Source: Chloroflexota bacterium
GTDB taxonomy: Bacteria; Chloroflexota; Anaerolineae; B4-G1
Length of the DNA: 21,445 nucleotides
Direction of reading: 5' to 3'
Assembly: GCA_024232355.1 (NCBI GenBank)
Contig: JAAEPW010000103.1
Coordinates: 1 to 21,445 of the forward strand
The translations under genes were made by a program, and so were the position numbers. Positions within the stretch are counted from its first letter, which is position 1, and every line of letters starts with the position of its first letter. Positions 3,813 through 11,108 of this stretch are shown one piece after another. Under the pieces are notes generated by a model. It was given only the letters and a program-made list of their open reading frames with translations. It was not told the DNA's origin and did not search any database.

Positions 3813-5177
3813 TTATTCCCCCCCAATGAGTACGTCACGGATGCGGATGTGGGGCGATCCCATCGCCACCGGCAATCCCCCCTGCCCTTTTCCACACATA
3901 CCCAATTCACTCCACCGAAAATCGTCACCGACGGCATCAATGTGATCCAGCGTGACAAAAAGGTTACCGCTGAGAATCACGTCGCGCACCATCTCGGCGA
4001 TCTCGCCGTCGCGGATCATGTAGGCGTGAGCAGAACTGAAGGAAAAGTTTTCCATCGCCGTCTGCCCGCCAAAGGCATCGCAGGCATAGATGCCCAACTC
4101 AATGTCGCCGATCATCTCCTCGAAAGAGGTCTCCCCGCCCTCGATAAAGGTGTTGGTCATGCGGACGATGGGCGGATATCGGTAGCCGGTGGCACGGGCG
4201 TTGCCGGTGGGCCGCTCGCCCATCTTGGCCGCCGTCTCCCGCGAGTGGAGCCGTCCGACCAGCACACCGCCTTTGATCAGATCGGTGCGACCGGTGGGAG
4301 TGCCCTCGTCGTCATATTTGTGAGAGCCGCGCAGCCCTGGGATAGAGCCGTCGTCAGCGATGGTCAAGATATCCTGCCCAAAGCGCCGCCCCAGCACCAT
4401 CATTTCCTGAGCCTGGGGATTATCATAGATAAAATCGGCCTCGGACAGGTGGCCAAAGGCCTCGTGGGCAAAGACGCCCGCCAGCTCGGGGTTGCAGACC
4501 ACAGTGTAGCGTCCACCCTTGACCCGGGGGGCCGACAAGAGATCCACCGCGCGCCGTGCCGCTGTCTCGGCCAACGCCTGGTGACCCACCGCCGTCTCAA
4601 AACCGGCTACCTTGGCTACTCCCTCAAAGCCCTGCTGCACGTTTCCATTCTCCCGGGCCACAGCGATGCAGGCGACGTAGACCGAGGGTCGTTCTTCCTC
4701 GACATAGGTTCCGTCCGAGCTGGCAAAGGTGATGCGGCTAAAGGCATCAGCATAGACGGTCTGGGTGTCCACGATGCGCGGGTCAAAGCCAAGGAGAATG
4801 TTGTTGTATTCTTCTGCCAGCGCCTTTTTCTCTGTCAATGTGATGCCCCGAAAGTCTCGCTCCAGCGGTACGGTGATCGTGTCCTCAGACGCGGATGCGG
4901 GGACCAACTCGATCGGCTCGTCTCCCTCGATGGCGCGAGCGCCTTTGTAAGCTTGCTGCACTCGGTGAGGGAGGTCTTCCAGATCGTTGAATGTGGCGAT
5001 CCCCCAACCTTTGTCCTGAACCAGGCAGCGCACGATCCCGCCGCGATCCAGAACGACGCTGGCGGTCTCTAAATCCTGGCCCCGGAACGCGACGCGGCTG
5101 CTTTCCCGCTCTTCCAGGCGGATCTCGACGTAATCTGCCCGGTTGCTGCGCAGCGCGGTTTGGATTTTGTCTCGCAT
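3813..5177 (-). CDS. tldD: Zinc metallopeptidase TldD
   Basis: A 454-residue TldD. The zinc-binding motif HEAFGH is at residues 238-243 within GVFAHEAFGHLSEADF, and the conserved C-terminal MCGKGQ segment carries Cys428, the likely third metal ligand. TldD together with TldE forms a cytoplasmic protease for small or unfolded peptides; known examples process microcin B17 and related modified peptides. No modified-peptide precursor is visible near this operon, so a housekeeping role is more likely. The ATG at 5177 is preceded by an AAAGGAGG site (5183-5190 on the plus strand as cctccttt), which fixes the start. It is the first gene of the tldD-tldE operon. Confidence 0.95.
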   Translation of the reverse strand: MRDKIQTALRSNRADYVEIRLEERESSRVAFRGQDLETASVVLDRGGIVRCLVQDKGWGIATFNDLEDLPHRVQQAYKGARAIEGDEPIELVPASASEDTITVPLERDFRGITLTEKKALAEEYNNILLGFDPRIVDTQTVYADAFSRITFASSDGTYVEEERPSVYVACIAVARENGNVQQGFEGVAKVAGFETAVGHQALAETAARRAVDLLSAPRVKGGRYTVVCNPELAGVFAHEAFGHLSEADFIYDNPQAQEMMVLGRRFGQDILTIADDGSIPGLRGSHKYDDEGTPTGRTDLIKGGVLVGRLHSRETAAKMGERPTGNARATGYRYPPIVRMTNTFIEGGETSFEEMIGDIELGIYACDAFGGQTAMENFSFSSAHAYMIRDGEIAEMVRDVILSGNLFVTLDHIDAVGDDFRWSELGMCGKGQGGLPVAMGSPHIRIRDVLIGGE

Positions 5178-5210
5178 ATTGCCCTCCTTTGCTAAATTTC
5201 AATGTTTGTC

Positions 5211-5238
5211 ATTGTATTCCTATTACCCTAAAAGGCAA
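5211..5238 (-). promoter_or_regulatory. Candidate promoter of tldD-tldE
   Basis: Reading the minus strand: TTGCCT (5238-5233), 16-bp spacer, TACAAT (5216-5211), about 20 bp upstream of the ribosome-binding site of tldD. Fit to the sigma-70 type is fair only. Confidence 0.4.
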
Positions 5239-5391
5239 GATCTGGTTCATCAGCATGGGAAATTGTGTCGTCAATTTTGGCATATGATTCTCTCCAGTTT
5301 GTCTTGTTACCCAATAGTAACGTAACCGTAATCCTAAATGAGTGAACAAATGCTAAAATTACATTACAATTTGTCTTGAAAGAGGAATGAC

Positions 5392-6225
5392 ATGCTAAAA
5401 CAAACCACAGATCGAATCGAACTTGTATCGGCAATCACCGTAACTCTGATTTTGTTGCCGATACTGATTGTTTCAGGACTGGAATACAGAGCCGAGTTCA
5501 CGCCTGCCCTGGAGCCGATACTTGCAACCCATCTCGCGGTTCAAGGCAGGTCTATGCCTATTGTCGAGCCAATGCCAGAGATCCTAGAATCGGACATGAT
5601 CGGGTCCGCGCCCGCTCGCGATCTAATACCCATAGTCGCCATTGCAAGTAAAATCCAGTCCACACTGGCAACGGCAGTCGCCAGCACGACCAAGCCCACT
5701 TTCACTCATAAACTAGTGTCTACACCTGCTCCTTCTGATCCGCTTCCTTTACCACCCACTCGTCTGCTCATCCCCGCTATTGACCTGGAGGCCCCGGTCG
5801 TTGCAGTAGATCGCGTGAACACAGAGATCAACGGACAACCGGTCACCACCTGGGCTGTACCCGATAGTTTTTCAGTCGGTTGGCACAATACGTCGGCACT
5901 GCCCGGCCAGATCGGTAATACGTTGATCAATGGTCATTCAAACATCTACGGCGAGGTCTTTCGCAACCTGGAAGCACTCGAGTTGGGCGATGAGATCATC
6001 ATTTATGTGGATGACGCCGTTTATCGTTACCAGGTCACCGAGTGGCATCTCTTGAGAGAAGAGGATATTTCGTGGGAAGATCGTACAGAGAACACAAAGT
6101 GGATGCTGCCCACCAAAGAGGAACGGCTAACGCTTTTCACGTGCGCACCCTACCCGGAAAACACGCACCGTTTGGTTGTCGTGGCTTTGCCTGTGGAAGC
6201 AGAATTTGTCGTATATCCCCAGTAG
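5392..6225 (+). CDS. Sortase family transpeptidase (class D/E-like)
   Basis: A 277-residue sortase. Residues 11-29 form one membrane segment, followed by a roughly 85-residue Pro/Thr-containing stalk and the catalytic beta-barrel from about residue 122. The catalytic triad can be read: His182 in LINGHSN, Cys251 in LTLFTCAPYPENTHR and Arg260. Sortases cleave an LPxTG-like signal and attach the protein to the cell surface or to another protein. No gene here encodes an obvious sorting-signal protein, and the gene stands alone, so the substrate is elsewhere. The ATG at 5392 follows an AAAGAGG site about 7 nt upstream. The exact sortase class is uncertain. Confidence 0.9.
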   Translation: MLKQTTDRIELVSAITVTLILLPILIVSGLEYRAEFTPALEPILATHLAVQGRSMPIVEPMPEILESDMIGSAPARDLIPIVAIASKIQSTLATAVASTTKPTFTHKLVSTPAPSDPLPLPPTRLLIPAIDLEAPVVAVDRVNTEINGQPVTTWAVPDSFSVGWHNTSALPGQIGNTLINGHSNIYGEVFRNLEALELGDEIIIYVDDAVYRYQVTEWHLLREEDISWEDRTENTKWMLPTKEERLTLFTCAPYPENTHRLVVVALPVEAEFVVYPQ

Positions 6226-6257
6226 AGCGATCATAGTCCCCAAACATTGTACATGTC

Positions 6258-6275
6258 CTCAAGCGCCGGCTTGAG
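6258..6275 (+). terminator. Candidate hairpin after the sortase gene
   Basis: Stem ctcaagc/gcttgag (7 bp) with loop gccg, 32 bp after the sortase stop. No T-tract follows at once, so intrinsic termination is uncertain. The rest of 6276-6332 shows nothing further. Confidence 0.4.
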
Positions 6276-6332
6276 CATAGTGCCCCTCACTTTTGCCTTT
6301 TGTTGCAATATCCCATTTCAGGATAGAATGAC

Positions 6333-6361
6333 TTGACAATCATGTTGTTCGGCCATATAAT
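6333..6361 (+). promoter_or_regulatory. Consensus sigma-70-type promoter of marR and the octaheme cytochrome
   Basis: TTGACA at 6333-6338, exactly 17 bp of spacer, then TATAAT at 6356-6361: both hexamers match the consensus perfectly. Transcription would start near 6368, about 34 bp before the marR ATG. The -10 hexamer lies inside the palindrome at 6353-6385. A promoter this strong with an operator laid over it is typical of a tightly repressed, inducible operon. Confidence 0.88.
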
Positions 6362-6385
6362 TAGTTAGACTAACTAATTATATGG
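6353..6385. promoter_or_regulatory. Perfect 33-bp palindromic operator, probably for the adjacent MarR
   Basis: Arms ccatataattagttag (6353-6368) and ctaactaattatatgg (6370-6385) are exact reverse complements around a single central base at 6369. It covers the -10 element and the predicted start site. MarR dimers usually bind palindromes of about 16-20 bp near their own promoter; the inner TTAGTTAG/CTAACTAA core has that size. Repression by the product of the next gene is inferred. Confidence 0.85.
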
Positions 6386-6401
6386 TGAAAGAGCAAACAA
6401 C

Positions 6402-6845
6402 ATGACCAACGAATCATTGTCAGCAGATGAACGTCTCTTGGGATTGTTCGGACGGTTAATAAAGTTAGGATTGGGTCAAAATCCGTTGCAAGATAGCAGA
6501 GTGACATTGCCACAACTCTCTCTGCTCGACTGGATTGCCGATTCGCCTGGTTGTAGTGTGCGAGGGATTGCCAGTGGTCTAGACTTGACCTCGCCAACTG
6601 TCAGCGTAGGAGTACGCCGCCTGGAAAAAGCTGGATTGGTAGAGCGACAGCCCGATCCCAAAGATGGGCGTTCTGTCCAATTCTTTTTGACTGTACAGGG
6701 TCAAGCATTACACGAGCATGCCTTGGTCTTTCGCCGGGGGAAAATGCGACAAATGCTCTCGGGGCTAACATCGGAGGAAACCCCCACGTTGTTGACCTTG
6801 CTAGAAAAAGCCATTGACGCTGTCCAAAAGCCAAGCAGCGAGTAG
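6402..6845 (+). CDS. MarR family transcriptional regulator
   Basis: A 147-residue winged-helix regulator of the MarR type. The segment LSLLDWIADSPGCSVRGIAS begins the DNA-binding domain, the recognition helix is DLTSPTVSVGVRRLEKAGL, and the wing is ERQPDPKDGRSVQFFLT. Flanking helices would form the dimer interface. MarR proteins usually repress their own operon and are released by a small ligand or by oxidation. One cysteine (in PGCSV, near the start of the domain) is present, which leaves redox sensing possible but unproven. The gene starts at ATG 6402, 16 bp after the palindrome, with a weak GAAAGAG site. The octaheme cytochrome gene follows 56 bp downstream on the same strand with no terminator between, so the two are probably one operon. 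Confidence 0.92.
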   Translation: MTNESLSADERLLGLFGRLIKLGLGQNPLQDSRVTLPQLSLLDWIADSPGCSVRGIASGLDLTSPTVSVGVRRLEKAGLVERQPDPKDGRSVQFFLTVQGQALHEHALVFRRGKMRQMLSGLTSEETPTLLTLLEKAIDAVQKPSSE

Positions 6846-6901
6846 GCATACTCCCGCCCCATTCAAAAATTTCTTTCTCACAACCCTATTGGAGGTTACT
6901 T

Positions 6902-8191
6902 ATGAGTTGGTGTAAAATTTCCACAACCCGAATCGCAAAGAACGTTCTCGCATTTCTCCTCGTCACGATACTGTTGATCGTTGCACAGATATCGATTGGC
7001 AACAATCGATATGGATCCAGCGTGGCAGCAGCCGGACTTTATCGAAAAGCTTTACCACAAGTGTCAGCCCCTGGAGACAAAACGGCAGACGACTCTTGCC
7101 AAGACTGTCATACTGGAGCGGCGACGGATTTCGCTCGAAGCAGCAAATCATCTTTTATGTCTTGTGTAGACTGCCATGGAGAGGATCACAATGGACCCGA
7201 TACCGGGCCGCCCAGCATTCCCACGCCATTGGTTTGCCAAAAATGCCACGAGGATCAGGTCGAGCAGTTCAACGAGGGCAAGCATTCCTATGGCTGGGAA
7301 GCCATGCTGGCAGTGCCCACGTACCAAACGATGCCGGGGGCTGTCACAGACAAGGGTTGTGTCACCTGCCACCGGATTGGTTATCCGTGGGAGGATGGCA
7401 GCCGCGGGCGCTGCGATGTTTGCCATACTCGACACGTTTTTTCTGCCGCCGAGGCCAGAAAGCCAGAAGCGTGCGCAACCTGCCACACTGGAGATCACCC
7501 GCATTATGACATGTGGGCGAATTCAAAACACGGTATGCTCTATGCTATGGAAGGGGACACGGGCAGGGCACCCACCTGTGTGACATGTCACGAGAACCAC
7601 AAAGTCCTGACTGCTTGGGGATTCCTCGGCTTGCGAGAAGGGGATCAAGATGACCCCGAGTGGACCGAGGCGCGGGCCAAAGTCCGGCAAACCCTGGAAA
7701 CTATGGGGCCGGCTCTGGCTCCAAAAGTCATGCGCTCTTCCTTTTCCGAGTGGCAAAGCGCGCGCAAAGAGATGATCGACCGGTGCACAGAATGTCATGC
7801 AGAAAGCTATGTCCGGCGCGAAATGGAAAAGAGTGACGCCCTATTGCGAGAGGCGGATTTGGCGCAGGCCAACGTGATTGATCTCGCGAACAAGTTGTAT
7901 GGCGATGGCTTGATCGATGACAAGACCCGTTTTAACATTTATCGAGAGAGCACGGCCCATCGTTTTTCGACATTTATGGGTGGATTTCACAATTCGGCCA
8001 ACTATGCCTGGGATAGGGGATATCTAGAGTTGGTCTCGGGCATTGTGGCCGAAAGGGACACGGCCATTGGGATCAAAAAACTGTCGATTATCCAGAACAT
8101 TGGCATTGTTGGCCTGGCAGCCGCCTTGGTGAGTCTTTGCTTGGTATTTTGGCACAGATTCAAGTACTTGAAAAAGATAAAAGCTAGTTGA
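6902..8191 (+). CDS. Membrane-anchored octaheme cytochrome c, hydroxylamine oxidoreductase (HAO)-like
   Basis: A 429-residue protein with eight CxxCH heme sites, beginning at residues 66, 88, 112, 153, 171, 191, 226 and 295. The spacing and the text around them (CDVCHTRHVFSAAEARKPEA, then CATCHTGDHP, W..SKHGMLY, APTCVTCHENH, a late CTECH followed by a long helical tail with GGFHNSANYAWDRGY) match the octaheme HAO family. Members oxidise hydroxylamine or hydrazine, or run in reverse as nitrite or hydroxylamine reductases. Residues about 13-32 are a signal anchor and 396-416 a C-terminal membrane segment with a basic cytoplasmic tail, so it is probably membrane-tethered outside. It is shorter than typical HAO (above 500 residues). 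The Tyr that cross-links the catalytic heme in true HAO cannot be assigned; Tyr347, 368 and 374 are candidates. GGAGG at 6891-6895 fixes the start. Confidence 0.82.
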   Translation: MSWCKISTTRIAKNVLAFLLVTILLIVAQISIGNNRYGSSVAAAGLYRKALPQVSAPGDKTADDSCQDCHTGAATDFARSSKSSFMSCVDCHGEDHNGPDTGPPSIPTPLVCQKCHEDQVEQFNEGKHSYGWEAMLAVPTYQTMPGAVTDKGCVTCHRIGYPWEDGSRGRCDVCHTRHVFSAAEARKPEACATCHTGDHPHYDMWANSKHGMLYAMEGDTGRAPTCVTCHENHKVLTAWGFLGLREGDQDDPEWTEARAKVRQTLETMGPALAPKVMRSSFSEWQSARKEMIDRCTECHAESYVRREMEKSDALLREADLAQANVIDLANKLYGDGLIDDKTRFNIYRESTAHRFSTFMGGFHNSANYAWDRGYLELVSGIVAERDTAIGIKKLSIIQNIGIVGLAAALVSLCLVFWHRFKYLKKIKAS

Positions 8192-8238
8192 ACTCTTACA
8201 GTGAATAGGGAATGATGCGCCTAATCTTTGTACACAAC

Positions 8239-8264
8239 CGGAGCCGGTCATTTGGCCGGCTCCG
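8239..8264. terminator. Bidirectional hairpin between convergent genes
   Basis: Stem cggagccgg (8239-8247) and ccggctccg (8256-8264), perfect 9 bp, loop of 8. It lies between the stop of the octaheme cytochrome and the stop of the Nudix gene on the other strand. No long T-tract follows on either strand. Confidence 0.6.
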
Positions 8265-8270
8265 AAATGA

Positions 8271-8735
8271 CTAGCGAAAAACCCCTCGCTTTTGCTCGAC
8301 GTAATCAGCCAACATGTCTCGATGTTGTTGATTGAATAGGCGAGGAGCATCGTGGGGATCAAAGAATGTCAGGTCAAAGGTCTCTTTGCGATCCATGCTC
8401 AAATTGCCGTCAAGCACGGAACACTGAAAAAAGAAAACGATGGTCTGTGCTTGATCACCATTTGGGTATACGTCGAAATACTTTGTGTATACTCCAATCA
8501 GCGAATCCACGTGAACGCATAAACCGGTCTCTTCCTGGACCTCTCGAATTACGGTCTGTTCAGCGGACTCGCCGATCTCCAGGGCGCCGCCTGGGAAACC
8601 CCACGTATGCCCAGAGACCGTTCTCTTTTGCAAAAGGACTTGTCCCTCGTCGTTGGTGATACAAGCCACAGCGAAATTGAGGAAAATTTGCTCGTGACCG
8701 ACTTGGGCTCTGATCCACGTTATATAGTCACCCAT
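8271..8735 (-). CDS. Nudix hydrolase
   Basis: A 154-residue Nudix enzyme. The signature Gx5Ex7REUxEExGU is complete in the segment GALEIGESAEQTVIREVQEE followed by TGL. Nudix proteins hydrolyse nucleoside diphosphates linked to another group, such as oxidised nucleotides, ADP-ribose or NADH, using Mg2+ bound by the REVQEE glutamates. The subfamily, and so the substrate, cannot be told; the N-terminal AVACITNDEGQVLLQKRTVS resembles general MutT-like or ADP-ribose-type members. Its ATG (8733-8735) overlaps the stop of the upstream reductase (8735-8737) as TGATG, so the two are translationally coupled. A shared pathway with the reductase is possible but not shown. Confidence 0.9.
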   Translation of the reverse strand: MGDYITWIRAQVGHEQIFLNFAVACITNDEGQVLLQKRTVSGHTWGFPGGALEIGESAEQTVIREVQEETGLCVHVDSLIGVYTKYFDVYPNGDQAQTIVFFFQCSVLDGNLSMDRKETFDLTFFDPHDAPRLFNQQHRDMLADYVEQKRGVFR

Positions 8736-9652
8736 CAGTGATCCCGTTCCAACACCTGAATGATGCGCAACACGATTCGATTCACCGGCGTGGGAATGGC
8801 GTGCGTTTTGCCCAACTCGACCATCTTGCCGCCAAATATCTCTACCTCGGTCTTGCGCCCGGCCTCAATGTCTTGCAGCATTGAGGTTTTGCCCTGCGGA
8901 GATAGGCTGTTGAGAAACGTGTACCAGTCGTCAATGTCCTGCTCCACCAGGTTCACCTGGGCGGCCTTGGCCAATGCGATCACCTCGCGCATCAACGCTT
9001 CCATCAATTCCTGGGCCTCTGGCAATGATTGGAAAATCCCGTACGGGGCCCGCATCACCGCCGATCCCTGGTTCATCCCGACATTGATCATGAATTTCCA
9101 CCACATGATGCGAATCATATCGTGCGGTGTCTCGTAGGTGATCCCGGCCCGGTCGAACGCCCGCTGCACGCGCTGGACCCGCGGGCTGAGGTGGGTGTTG
9201 GTCGCCTCGCCAAAATAGTGCTTGCCGGGCTTGGAAAAAGTGATCTGGTTCCCCTGGCGCAGGGCGTCTATGCCGACAGAAATGGCATACAGCATCTTGT
9301 CCATGCCATAGACGGCCCCGATGATCTCTTCGCTGTCGAGACCGTTCATCACCGAGATGATGGTGGTCTGGTCACCAACCAGATGCTTCAGATCGGGAAC
9401 CGCTTGGGGGAGGTGATGGTGTTTCAGTGCCACGATGACGAGATCAACGGGGGAGGCGGCCTGATCGGGATGTACGACCGGGATGGCGTACGCTTTCCCG
9501 TTGACCACCAGGCCATCGTTTTTGAGCTGGTCATACCGTTCGCCCCGCGCGACGATTGCTGTTGAGAATTCGGGGGTATTGAAAAATTGGGTGGCGAAAT
9601 ACGCGCCCATCGCGCCTGCGCCCAGGATGGCTACTTGAGTGATTTCTTGCAT
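8735..9652 (-). CDS. Ketopantoate reductase (ApbA/PanE)-like NAD(P)-dependent oxidoreductase
   Basis: A 305-residue protein with an N-terminal Rossmann motif, VAILGAGAMGAYFATQ, and the family's second half, including KHHHLPQAVPDLKHLVG, ISVMNGLDSEE and the C-terminal helical domain with MWWKFMINVGMNQGSAVMRA (Lys and Asn typical of the active site). PanE reduces 2-dehydropantoate to pantoate with NADPH in coenzyme A synthesis, but many paralogues act on other substrates, so panE is not assigned. The start is ATG 9652: a GGAGGA site lies 6 nt upstream and the Rossmann motif begins a few residues in. A longer frame reaching 9829 would overlap the next gene and add an unlikely hydrophobic leader. 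It is followed directly by the overlapping Nudix gene. Confidence 0.88.
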   Translation of the reverse strand: MQEITQVAILGAGAMGAYFATQFFNTPEFSTAIVARGERYDQLKNDGLVVNGKAYAIPVVHPDQAASPVDLVIVALKHHHLPQAVPDLKHLVGDQTTIISVMNGLDSEEIIGAVYGMDKMLYAISVGIDALRQGNQITFSKPGKHYFGEATNTHLSPRVQRVQRAFDRAGITYETPHDMIRIMWWKFMINVGMNQGSAVMRAPYGIFQSLPEAQELMEALMREVIALAKAAQVNLVEQDIDDWYTFLNSLSPQGKTSMLQDIEAGRKTEVEIFGGKMVELGKTHAIPTPVNRIVLRIIQVLERDH

Positions 9653-9707
9653 TGATTCCTCCCATACGTCCATTTTAACAATCTCATATTTTGTCATCTT
9701 TAAATGA

Positions 9708-10214
9708 CTAGTCTGTCTCAATCTGCCTGCGGAAACAAAGAAATGCAAATAGAATAATACCACCAGTCCACCCTGTTCCCAATATCCAAACCCAAAAATC
9801 AATGATAGGAAGACCGATAACTGGCACATAACGGTATTTCAGAACTATCCACAAGTGTGTGGATACAATCCCCAGCCAAAGAACGCCCAGTGCCAATGCA
9901 ACCAATATCCCCATTGTGACAACTTTGATCAATATGCGCGAAGTCTTGAATCCTGTGCTGGTTGAGATGAAAGCTACAAACCAACTCAAAGTGGCCAACA
10001 AGACAGTAGGAATAATTGACACCGGCAAGTCGTCAATCCATGGGTTAATAGGCGGGGCAAGATTTCCTAAAAGAGGATTCATCTCTGAAATATCCGTTTG
10101 TGTTATTGTGATTGCTGTGACTATAACGGGAGCAATCGCCAATAATAATATAAATGCCCAATTACCGGCTTTCACTTTCATAAATATCTTGTGGGGCTTG
10201 TTCGGAGATTTCAT
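9708..10214 (-). CDS. Hypothetical membrane protein with four hydrophobic segments
   Basis: A 168-residue protein with hydrophobic stretches at about residues 18-37, 66-84, 94-116 and 139-161, consistent with four membrane spans. The loop between spans 1 and 2 is Pro/Asn-rich. I do not recognise the family. Codon content is less GC-rich than the neighbours. The ATG at 10214 lacks a good ribosome-binding site; Met12 is another possible start. It ends 55 bp before the reductase and could belong to the same transcript. The coding call rests on the coherent membrane pattern. Confidence 0.55.
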   Translation of the reverse strand: MKSPNKPHKIFMKVKAGNWAFILLLAIAPVIVTAITITQTDISEMNPLLGNLAPPINPWIDDLPVSIIPTVLLATLSWFVAFISTSTGFKTSRILIKVVTMGILVALALGVLWLGIVSTHLWIVLKYRYVPVIGLPIIDFWVWILGTGWTGGIILFAFLCFRRQIETD

Positions 10215-10272
10215 CTTGTGAGTGCTTGTGAGATATGAAACCCTTGAGAGTTATCGGGCAGTTCACGAGTTA

Positions 10273-10455
10273 CTAAGACGCCAAACCATCCAACACAAAC
10301 CGCTCAATCGCCACCGCCGCACCATCCTCCGACAACGGCGGCGCAACCCAATCGGCAACAGCCTTGACCGCCGGGCTGCCGTTGCCCATGGCGATGTCGT
10401 TGTCTTGGTCGCCGACTGCCATCACTTGCGCCTGCGGAAAGTTTGGTAGTTGCAT
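10273..10455 (-). pseudogene. Truncated second copy of the HAD phosphatase C-terminus
   Basis: The frame reads MQLPNF then [14 protein letters not shown], a short gap, and [20 protein letters not shown] onward to the end DGLAS. This matches the last part of the HAD phosphatase at 11169-12017. Homology spans about 10273-10437. The copy lacks motifs I-III of the HAD fold and has lost 30 bp (net 10 residues) in the TSMIAWAGLGV region, so it cannot be an active phosphatase. All seven substitutions I counted against the full copy are at third codon positions and silent, and the missing bases keep the frame. It therefore looks like the tail of a diverged, once functional gene, not a fresh duplicate. 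The preceding stretch 10456-10577 shows no gene. Confidence 0.8.
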
Positions 10456-10577
10456 TTGTCAATGCGCTCTGAGGTTATTTATCTGAACTTGTCAACTTGG
10501 CTTCTCTTTTTACGGGATATACAGACACTTGCAAAGATTTTATCCCGTGAAACCCGTTCACCTGAATCTTTGGCACC

Positions 10578-11108
10578 CTACTGCGTATCTTTTGCTGTCC
10601 TCTCATCGATAAAATCGGATATGCTATTTACTCCTCGTTTGTTGCCTTCAAGCCACTCTACCAACCACTCTGTCAATCGTTCTTTTTTCATAACAATGTA
10701 GGTGCCTGGTTCTGGTTCATCGATCCACTCATATTGCACAACCAAAACCACGGGCTCTTCTGCTCCCATAGTTTTTCTGGAGAAATCCCGGGCTTCCTCG
10801 TAGGTTGCAAACGCCTGGTAATAATCATCTCCATCATAGATATCCTCGCCACCCAGCTCTGGGTGAATCCAGGCTCGATACTCCAACACCTCGTCATAAA
10901 AGTATCCACCTCCAGACTTGGTAAACGCTGGATATTGACCGATCTTGTCGATATCAACGGCAACCGGATACTGACTGGAAGAAACCTGTTCTTGTCCATT
11001 GGTAGTCGTGACATTAGAGCTACATGCGGTCAGACATAGGGTAGCTATCACAATTACCGATAACACAACTTGGCGATAATTTATAGTAATGAGAATATCT
11101 CTAGTCAT
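10578..11108 (-). CDS. Putative lipoprotein with a conserved YRAW/EWLVEWL domain
   Basis: A 176-residue protein from ATG 11108, which has an AAAGGA site about 9 nt upstream. Its N-terminus is a lipoprotein signal: a basic start, a hydrophobic run and the lipobox LTAC, with the Cys as the lipidated residue. The mature part carries LEYRAWIHPELGGEDIYDGD, then FATYEEARDFSRKTMGAEEP, VVLVVQYEWIDEPEPGTYIV and ERLTEWLVEWLEGNKR. I recall this conserved pattern from small bacterial proteins often loosely named as GCN5-like, but no acetyltransferase fold is visible and I assign no function. ATG 11150 gives a longer form that would spoil the short signal. The gene sits between the intact and the truncated HAD copies, so it may have arrived together with one of them. 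Confidence 0.7.
   Translation of the reverse strand: MTRDILITINYRQVVLSVIVIATLCLTACSSNVTTTNGQEQVSSSQYPVAVDIDKIGQYPAFTKSGGGYFYDEVLEYRAWIHPELGGEDIYDGDDYYQAFATYEEARDFSRKTMGAEEPVVLVVQYEWIDEPEPGTYIVMKKERLTEWLVEWLEGNKRGVNSISDFIDERTAKDTQ

Follow-up and report, generated by a model that had tools for sequence, protein, structure and literature searches.

Octahaem cytochromes c with the fold of hydroxylamine oxidoreductase (HAO) are often annotated as nitrogen-cycle enzymes by sequence alone. In HAO an Asp-His pair near haem 4 has a catalytic role, and the tyrosine that forms the cross-link is one which we take to be Tyr467. The described systems closest to the locus reported here are the reductive HAO-like octahaems of Kuenenia (Kustc0457/Kustc0458, 6h5l) and Ignicoccus (4qo5), the oxidative HAO (1fgj, 4fas), the anammox HAO/HDH (4n4j, 6hif), the epsilon-Hao of Campylobacterota, placed in the reverse-HURM pathway, and the MarR autorepressors that carry a palindrome over their own promoter. 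MarR, TetR and PadR families mostly sense lipophilic or phenolic ligands, and we know of no usual NO or nitrite sensors among them; the Rrf2 family, on the other hand, includes NO sensors. According to two papers, lack of the cross-linking tyrosine predicts reductive function (PMC12758564, PMC8940962).

The window, by which we mean the whole 21,445-nucleotide stretch analysed here (contig JAAEPW010000103.1 of a Chloroflexota bacterium, assembly GCA_024232355.1), carries an octahaem gene that resembles each of these systems in part. Compared with the Kuenenia and Ignicoccus octahaems, which exceed 500 aa, its product has only 429 aa, adds a hydrophobic C-terminal helix leading off the long HAO helix, and is linked to a local repressor. 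It shares fold, haem number and Asp-His pair with the oxidative HAO and the anammox HAO/HDH, but has Trp370 at the column of their cross-linking Tyr. Compared by description with epsilon-Hao, it has Trp at the same column, whereas the Met reported there eight residues before the Trp is replaced by Phe (PMC8940962), and no CycB-type partner gene stands beside it in the window. The regulator resembles known MarR autorepressors in its winged-helix domain, its palindrome at the -10 element and its place as first gene of the pair, yet the gene that follows encodes an HAO-family cytochrome. Reductive HAO-like octahaems and MarR autorepression are thus each already known, and their combination is new as far as the papers found go: in the open-licence PMC literature searched we saw no HAO-family cytochrome as a MarR target, in agreement with the original prediction, which knew of no described pairing of this kind, and no tethered Trp-bearing subclade with several kinds of local repressor.

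The arrangement that had been predicted, a perfect promoter, a mismatch-free 33-bp palindrome over its -10 element, a MarR gene and an octahaem gene 56 bp on, was recovered in full, and the promoter, operator and gene order given here are computed from the sequence:

6333..6338, + strand: -35 element TTGACA (motif scan).
6353..6385, no strand: perfect 33-bp palindrome (16+1+16), predicted MarR operator, with the core TTAGTTAGNCTAACTAA at 6361-6377 (inverted-repeat scan).
6356..6361, + strand: -10 element TATAAT, within the left arm of the palindrome (motif scan).
6402..6845, + strand: MarR-family repressor of 147 aa with a single cysteine, Cys51 (Pfam profile match).
6891..6895, + strand: GGAGG ribosome-binding site of the octahaem gene, 6 nt 5' of the ATG.
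6902..8191, + strand: HAO-family octahaem cytochrome c of 429 aa with eight CXXCH (PF13447 match and motif count).
8239..8264, no strand: GC-rich inverted repeat where the octahaem and NUDIX genes converge (inverted-repeat scan).

Spaced by 17 bp, the two promoter elements make up a consensus sigma-70 promoter, and TTGACA-N15..19-TATAAT has a single match in the whole window and none in 100 shuffles. The palindrome, whose arms are 100% complementary and which spans the -10 element, exceeds in length every other exact inverted repeat of the window (gap 0-6), 20 mononucleotide shuffles having given arms of 7-12 bp. Promoter and terminator scans found no match of either type in the 56-bp gap between the genes; one terminator-like match lies inside marR (6665-6679), such matches being at chance level (4 found, 3.9 expected). 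The repeat at 8239..8264 possibly marks the end of transcription, though it lacks a T run.

The MarR protein scores 62.1 bits with PF12802 and 59.3 bits with PF01047, which places its winged-helix domain above cut-off. Cys51, its sole cysteine, falls in a column that is Cys in 82% of 120 aligned MarR sequences (the top 120 of 271 matches, counting the query), and it is a candidate redox switch. A similar MarR gene (E 1e-20) occurs in two of 400 Chloroflexota genomes, and TTAGTTAGNCTAACTAA adjoins both, these being the only two of 94 loci examined that have it. Searching relatives of those two genomes for the same pattern returned 3/149 and 5/151 genomes (partly overlapping sets with one positive in common, hence seven distinct genomes with one site each), compared with 0/149 and 1/151 for a backward control pattern. 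In all seven of these other Chloroflexota-related genomes a MarR-domain ORF over the Pfam cut-off adjoins the site; at L107 the ORF as called overlaps it, and the start is probably further down. With 50-60% identity, five of the seven regulators fall into the subfamily of the window's MarR; the other two are of a different subfamily. Six of the seven sites are fused to a promoter with 16-18 bp between its -35 box and its TATA box, five matched by script and L106 by eye (TATAAA), the site at L104 being without a good -35. A co-directional ORF begins within 84 bp after MarR at six of the seven loci, which suggests that MarR genes of this kind are usually the first of an operon. What follows them varies: a CopD-like membrane protein occurs twice, and the others are an HlyD/MacB export pair, a PIG-L-like protein (by eye) accompanied by a divergently encoded FmdE-like protein, and glycosyltransferases (L103 by Pfam, L104 by eye), while at L106 an unassigned membrane protein follows at greater distance. 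The regulator and its operator are thus conserved while their cargo differs, the cargo in the window being the octahaem. From this comparison of sequences the 33-bp palindrome is very probably the MarR operator; both the conservation that the original prediction wished to see checked and the autorepression that it proposed gain support from the constant pairing of site and MarR gene. The members of the second MarR subfamily (L103 2206-3950, L104 2787-3658) have the same operator core before a glycosyltransferase-like gene.

The octahaem protein matches PF13447 with 83.6 bits (cut-off 21.9) and has the HAO fold, its eight CXXCH beginning at residues 66, 88, 112, 153, 171, 191, 226 and 295; a single-sequence PDB search returned Nitrosomonas-type HAO as top matches. 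A structure model built on a wider alignment reached a mean pLDDT of 85.0 (68.6 with the first alignment), and the wider profile, which took the place of a first, weak alignment of the C-terminus to HAO with a negative score, gave domain scores of 27.5 (6h5l) and 47.0 (4fas) for that part. Conservation was read from two alignments, A1 with 30 rows (the query and 29 of the first 35 close homologue matches) and A2 with 60 rows (a wider set with distant relatives). The features of the protein are as follows:

6902..7030, + strand: probable signal peptide, residues 1-43, hydrophobic at about 11-33, then SVAAAG.
7493..7498, + strand: Asp198-His199, aligned with the HAO Asp-His pair (in A2, D in 59/60 and H in 58/60).
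8009..8011, + strand: Trp370 codon, at the column of the HAO cross-linking Tyr (W in 30/30 rows of A1, query included).
8081..8155, + strand: C-terminal hydrophobic (transmembrane) helix, residues 394-418, then HRFKYLKKIK.

Fold, profile score, haem motifs and Asp-His pair together uphold the assignment to the HAO family; the cross-linking Tyr that was to be sought against HAO structures is absent, Trp370 standing in its place. The same column of A2 holds H in 21 rows, W in 19, F in 8, L in 6, Y in 4 and T in 2. Phe362 sits eight residues before Trp370 and is Phe in 29/30 rows of A1, and the nearest Met, Met359, lies 11 residues before. The protein contains no CXXCK active-site motif of the octahaem nitrite reductase or NrfA type. 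Trp at the Tyr column of the oxidative HAO shows loss of the cross-link, not an activity, and makes a reductive enzyme likely; the substrates proposed below are deduced from fold and active site.

The original prediction had also held that the cytochrome is anchored at both ends, of which only the C-terminal half is supported. The C-terminal hydrophobic helix is present in 31/31 close homologues and in 8/82 more distant ones (from 34 close and 86 distant proteins, of which three and four with fewer than eight CXXCH were dropped, P0034 being in neither set), so it marks the subclade to which the octahaem belongs; the model shows it as an extension of the long C-terminal helix (366-428). The N-terminal anchor is doubtful: the N-terminus is hydrophobic in 27/31 close homologues with eight haems, and an AxA motif stands shortly before haem 1 in 13/31. 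This stretch is likely a cleaved signal peptide, and the simplest reading is a single C-terminal anchor with the haem domain outside, though the N-terminal helix may be retained as a second anchor.

In a tree of 138 sequences (FastTree, midpoint root, no oxidative HAO included, so that it places the protein only among its nearer relatives) the window's octahaem falls in a clade of 40 on a long stem, with local support of 0.997. Assembled genomes in this clade and the next branch comprise two Bathyarchaeota-labelled MAGs (L001, L002), two Bacillota-labelled ones (L003, L004) and a relative of L004 (G526, L109). L001 and L002 have a PadR gene divergent from the octahaem gene, the two PadRs being 77% identical, and the intergenic stretches have CTGTTATATATGTAACA in common. 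L003 has a TetR gene upstream of the octahaem, and L109 has two downstream, the second 36% identical to that of L003. Sites resembling TGAGTGA-N4-TCACTCA (at most two mismatches) precede the octahaem gene in L003, L004 and L109, and the TetR genes of L003 and L109 also have one upstream; in L004, whose contig ends inside the octahaem gene, and in L109 the site is just 3' of a TTGACC-17-TATAAT promoter. An adjacent one-component regulator is thus found at five of six subclade-type loci, window included, which, the regulators coming from three families, amounts to at most three independent pairings. As for the length of palindrome arms upstream of the octahaem, only 3/200 or 0/200 shuffles were as long in L001, compared with 90 (L002), 66 (L003), 16 (L004) and 40 (L109) of 200; only the L001 palindrome clearly beats shuffles, so the sites of the other relatives rest on recurrence, not length. 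Among the more distant octahaems (120 neighbouring ORFs called with a simple caller at those of the loci L005-L080 with a recognised octahaem), Rrf2 appears three times, and it was not met beside the window's subclade. MarR, TetR and PadR are absent from the 25 neighbour families listed of 166, a list that includes ties at two members and so misses rarer regulators, the L019 MarR among them. Two side observations concern these genomes. Near the G526 octahaem (L109 8294-9756), genes for a FadR-like TetR and an ArsP_1-type permease each have an upstream TGAATGA-N4-TCATTCA and possibly form one small regulon, the TetR (9166-9756) resembling FadR with 96 bits, below the cut-off of 200; and L003 holds two tandem octahaem genes (6920-9267) with Trp in one and His in the other at the HAO Tyr column.

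A profile of the window's MarR subfamily, which could miss other MarR subfamilies, had one match in 84 octahaem loci scanned, L019 from a Candidatus Hydrothermus pacificus MAG. This MarR scores 49.2 bits with PF12802 (cut-off 27), is 35% identical over 52 aa to that of the window, and overlaps the start of the octahaem gene by 16 bp. With 36% identity to the octahaem of the window, that of L019 retains the Asp-His pair; its residue at the Tyr column is His, and it is without the C-terminal helix. Upstream, a TTGACT-18-TATAAT promoter runs into ATTAGAATTCCTAAT, an imperfect palindrome. It follows that a MarR gene and an HAO-type octahaem came together on at least one further occasion, there with a distantly related octahaem. 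Cys51 is not kept in the L019 regulator (6339-6947), whose C-terminal tail bears a CxxC motif and two further cysteines, four in all, which may form a sensor site for a metal or an Fe-S cluster.

The search for the pair in relatives came out divided: the distant pair in L019 was found, and no close octahaem turned up in the Chloroflexota genomes searched. At a limit of 1e-40 one of 400 genomes had a match, a 42% relative only; at 1e-30, three of 199 did, 42-44% relatives only; and at 1e-60, none of 48 from the order of G665, the three sets overlapping. No relative was found in viral contigs, and plasmid records gave only 26-27% relatives, on three records. The octahaem P0003 and the MarR P0129, which come from the same source and both have a longest contig of 1,995 bp, hint at a further pair, though this is no proof.

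The explanation that we favour, and consider rather probable, is a MarR-autorepressed dicistronic unit in which an exported, tethered and probably reductive HAO-like octahaem is released by a ligand or by oxidation. The consensus promoter would give one mRNA for MarR and the exported cytochrome, MarR dimers on the palindrome over the -10 element would block RNA polymerase, and MarR would be freed by a ligand or through oxidation of Cys51, its only cysteine, which would allow a burst of cytochrome. The cytochrome, HAO-like in fold, would probably form a trimer, with its long C-terminal helices running on into the membrane, and would be exposed on the outer side of the cytoplasmic membrane. As Trp replaces the cross-linking Tyr, the haem-4 site would be without the P460 cross-link and would reduce, not oxidise, small nitrogen oxides (nitrite, NO, hydroxylamine) with electrons from the quinol pool, via some partner or none. 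Fold, Trp and C-terminal helix are, like the promoter, computed from the sequence; trimer, co-transcription, catalytic direction, substrate, signal and electron donor are inferred. As to the trigger, the kinds of regulator found speak no less for a chemical or oxidative one than for NO. No haem-type quinol-handling partner is adjacent, as had been predicted, the octahaem being the only CXXCH protein among the ORFs of at least 60 aa in the window. This want of a haem protein that might serve as donor speaks against the favoured explanation, as do regulator families with no usual NO or nitrite sensors, the failure to find a close octahaem in the Chloroflexota genomes searched, and the incomplete conservation of Cys51.

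The regulators also lend themselves to another reading, which we think rather unlikely: a membrane electron-transfer protein induced by stress or xenobiotics, or a reductase of organic redox compounds, acting in nature on something other than a nitrogen oxide and governed by repressors that sense small hydrophobic or oxidising compounds. MarR here, TetR in the Bacillota-type loci and PadR in Bathyarchaeota are mostly sensors of lipophilic or phenolic compounds, Rrf2 was not met beside the subclade, and at other loci the genes behind members of the window's MarR subfamily encode a CopD-like protein and an HlyD/MacB export pair; the HAO fold and the conserved Asp-His pair nevertheless point to a site for small nitrogen molecules. 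A respiratory nitrite-ammonifying enzyme like epsilon-Hao, serving energy conservation, would agree with the Trp at the Tyr site that is reported for epsilon-Hao (PMC8940962) and with the HAO-type octahaems proposed for nitrite ammonification in Deferribacter (PMC6896113). PF03063 occurs in 8/8 octahaem-bearing genomes tested and 5/14 controls, which adds little, as this family comprises CO dehydrogenases besides hybrid cluster proteins. Phe362 where the epsilon-Hao Met is reported, a window free of any CycB/NrfH-type partner, and a repressor of the ligand type in place of a respiratory regulator speak against such an enzyme, and we judge it improbable.

It could also be argued that MarR and cytochrome are chance neighbours, MarR controlling itself only and the cytochrome being read through or having a weak promoter of its own. 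Other members of the MarR subfamily precede different genes, most related octahaems are without such a MarR nearby (1/84 loci with the subfamily profile), the lower G+C at 5-11 kb would suit a variable region, and the terminator-like match inside marR would fit, though it is at chance level. The two genes are nevertheless on the same strand across a gap free of promoter- and terminator-like matches, in other relatives, too, regulators are encoded beside the octahaem and its promoter bears recurring sites, and the independent, overlapping pair in L019 slightly lowers a likelihood that we already held to be small. Least credible of all is an oxidative hydroxylamine oxidoreductase that detoxifies hydroxylamine; the HAO fold and the best single-sequence PDB matches, Nitrosomonas-type HAO, are in its favour, and the Trp that replaces the cross-linking Tyr in every row of A1 weighs heavily against it.

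Returning to the repressed reductive octahaem, it may be speculated, as a tentative generalization that we put forward with reserve, that HAO-type octahaems, above all the C-terminally tethered Trp subclade, have repeatedly been placed under dedicated local repressors (MarR twice, independently, in Chloroflexota and Ca. Hydrothermus; TetR in Bacillota; PadR in Bathyarchaeota), every one of which acts at a strong promoter through a site of its own, and that they are inducible detoxification devices triggered by a small organic or oxidising compound, not a nitrogen oxide. If true, the HAO fold would here serve a purpose beyond the nitrogen-cycle respirations in which it is known. A tethered, Tyr-less subclade beside ligand-type repressors in several lineages offers a direct handle on function, as the inducer of each repressor should reveal the purpose of its cytochrome, and the predicted operator is short and exact.

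The TldD protein of the window agrees with an Anaerolineae-type Chloroflexota host: of the 120 TldD matches listed, eight bear an organism name, seven of them Anaerolineae and one Chloroflexia. Synteny of the TldD region with the window is not conserved in G648, G735 and G665. A large protein at 605-2485, with no Pfam match, has a long stalk of Pro-Thr repeats and is hydrophobic in a stretch at its C-terminus. A sortase-family protein (PF04203) is encoded at 5392-6225, just 5' of the MarR-octahaem unit, and the stretch 5001-11000, which holds the sortase, MarR, octahaem, NUDIX and reductase genes, has a G+C of 47-55% compared with 53-62% in the remaining window and is possibly a variable region.
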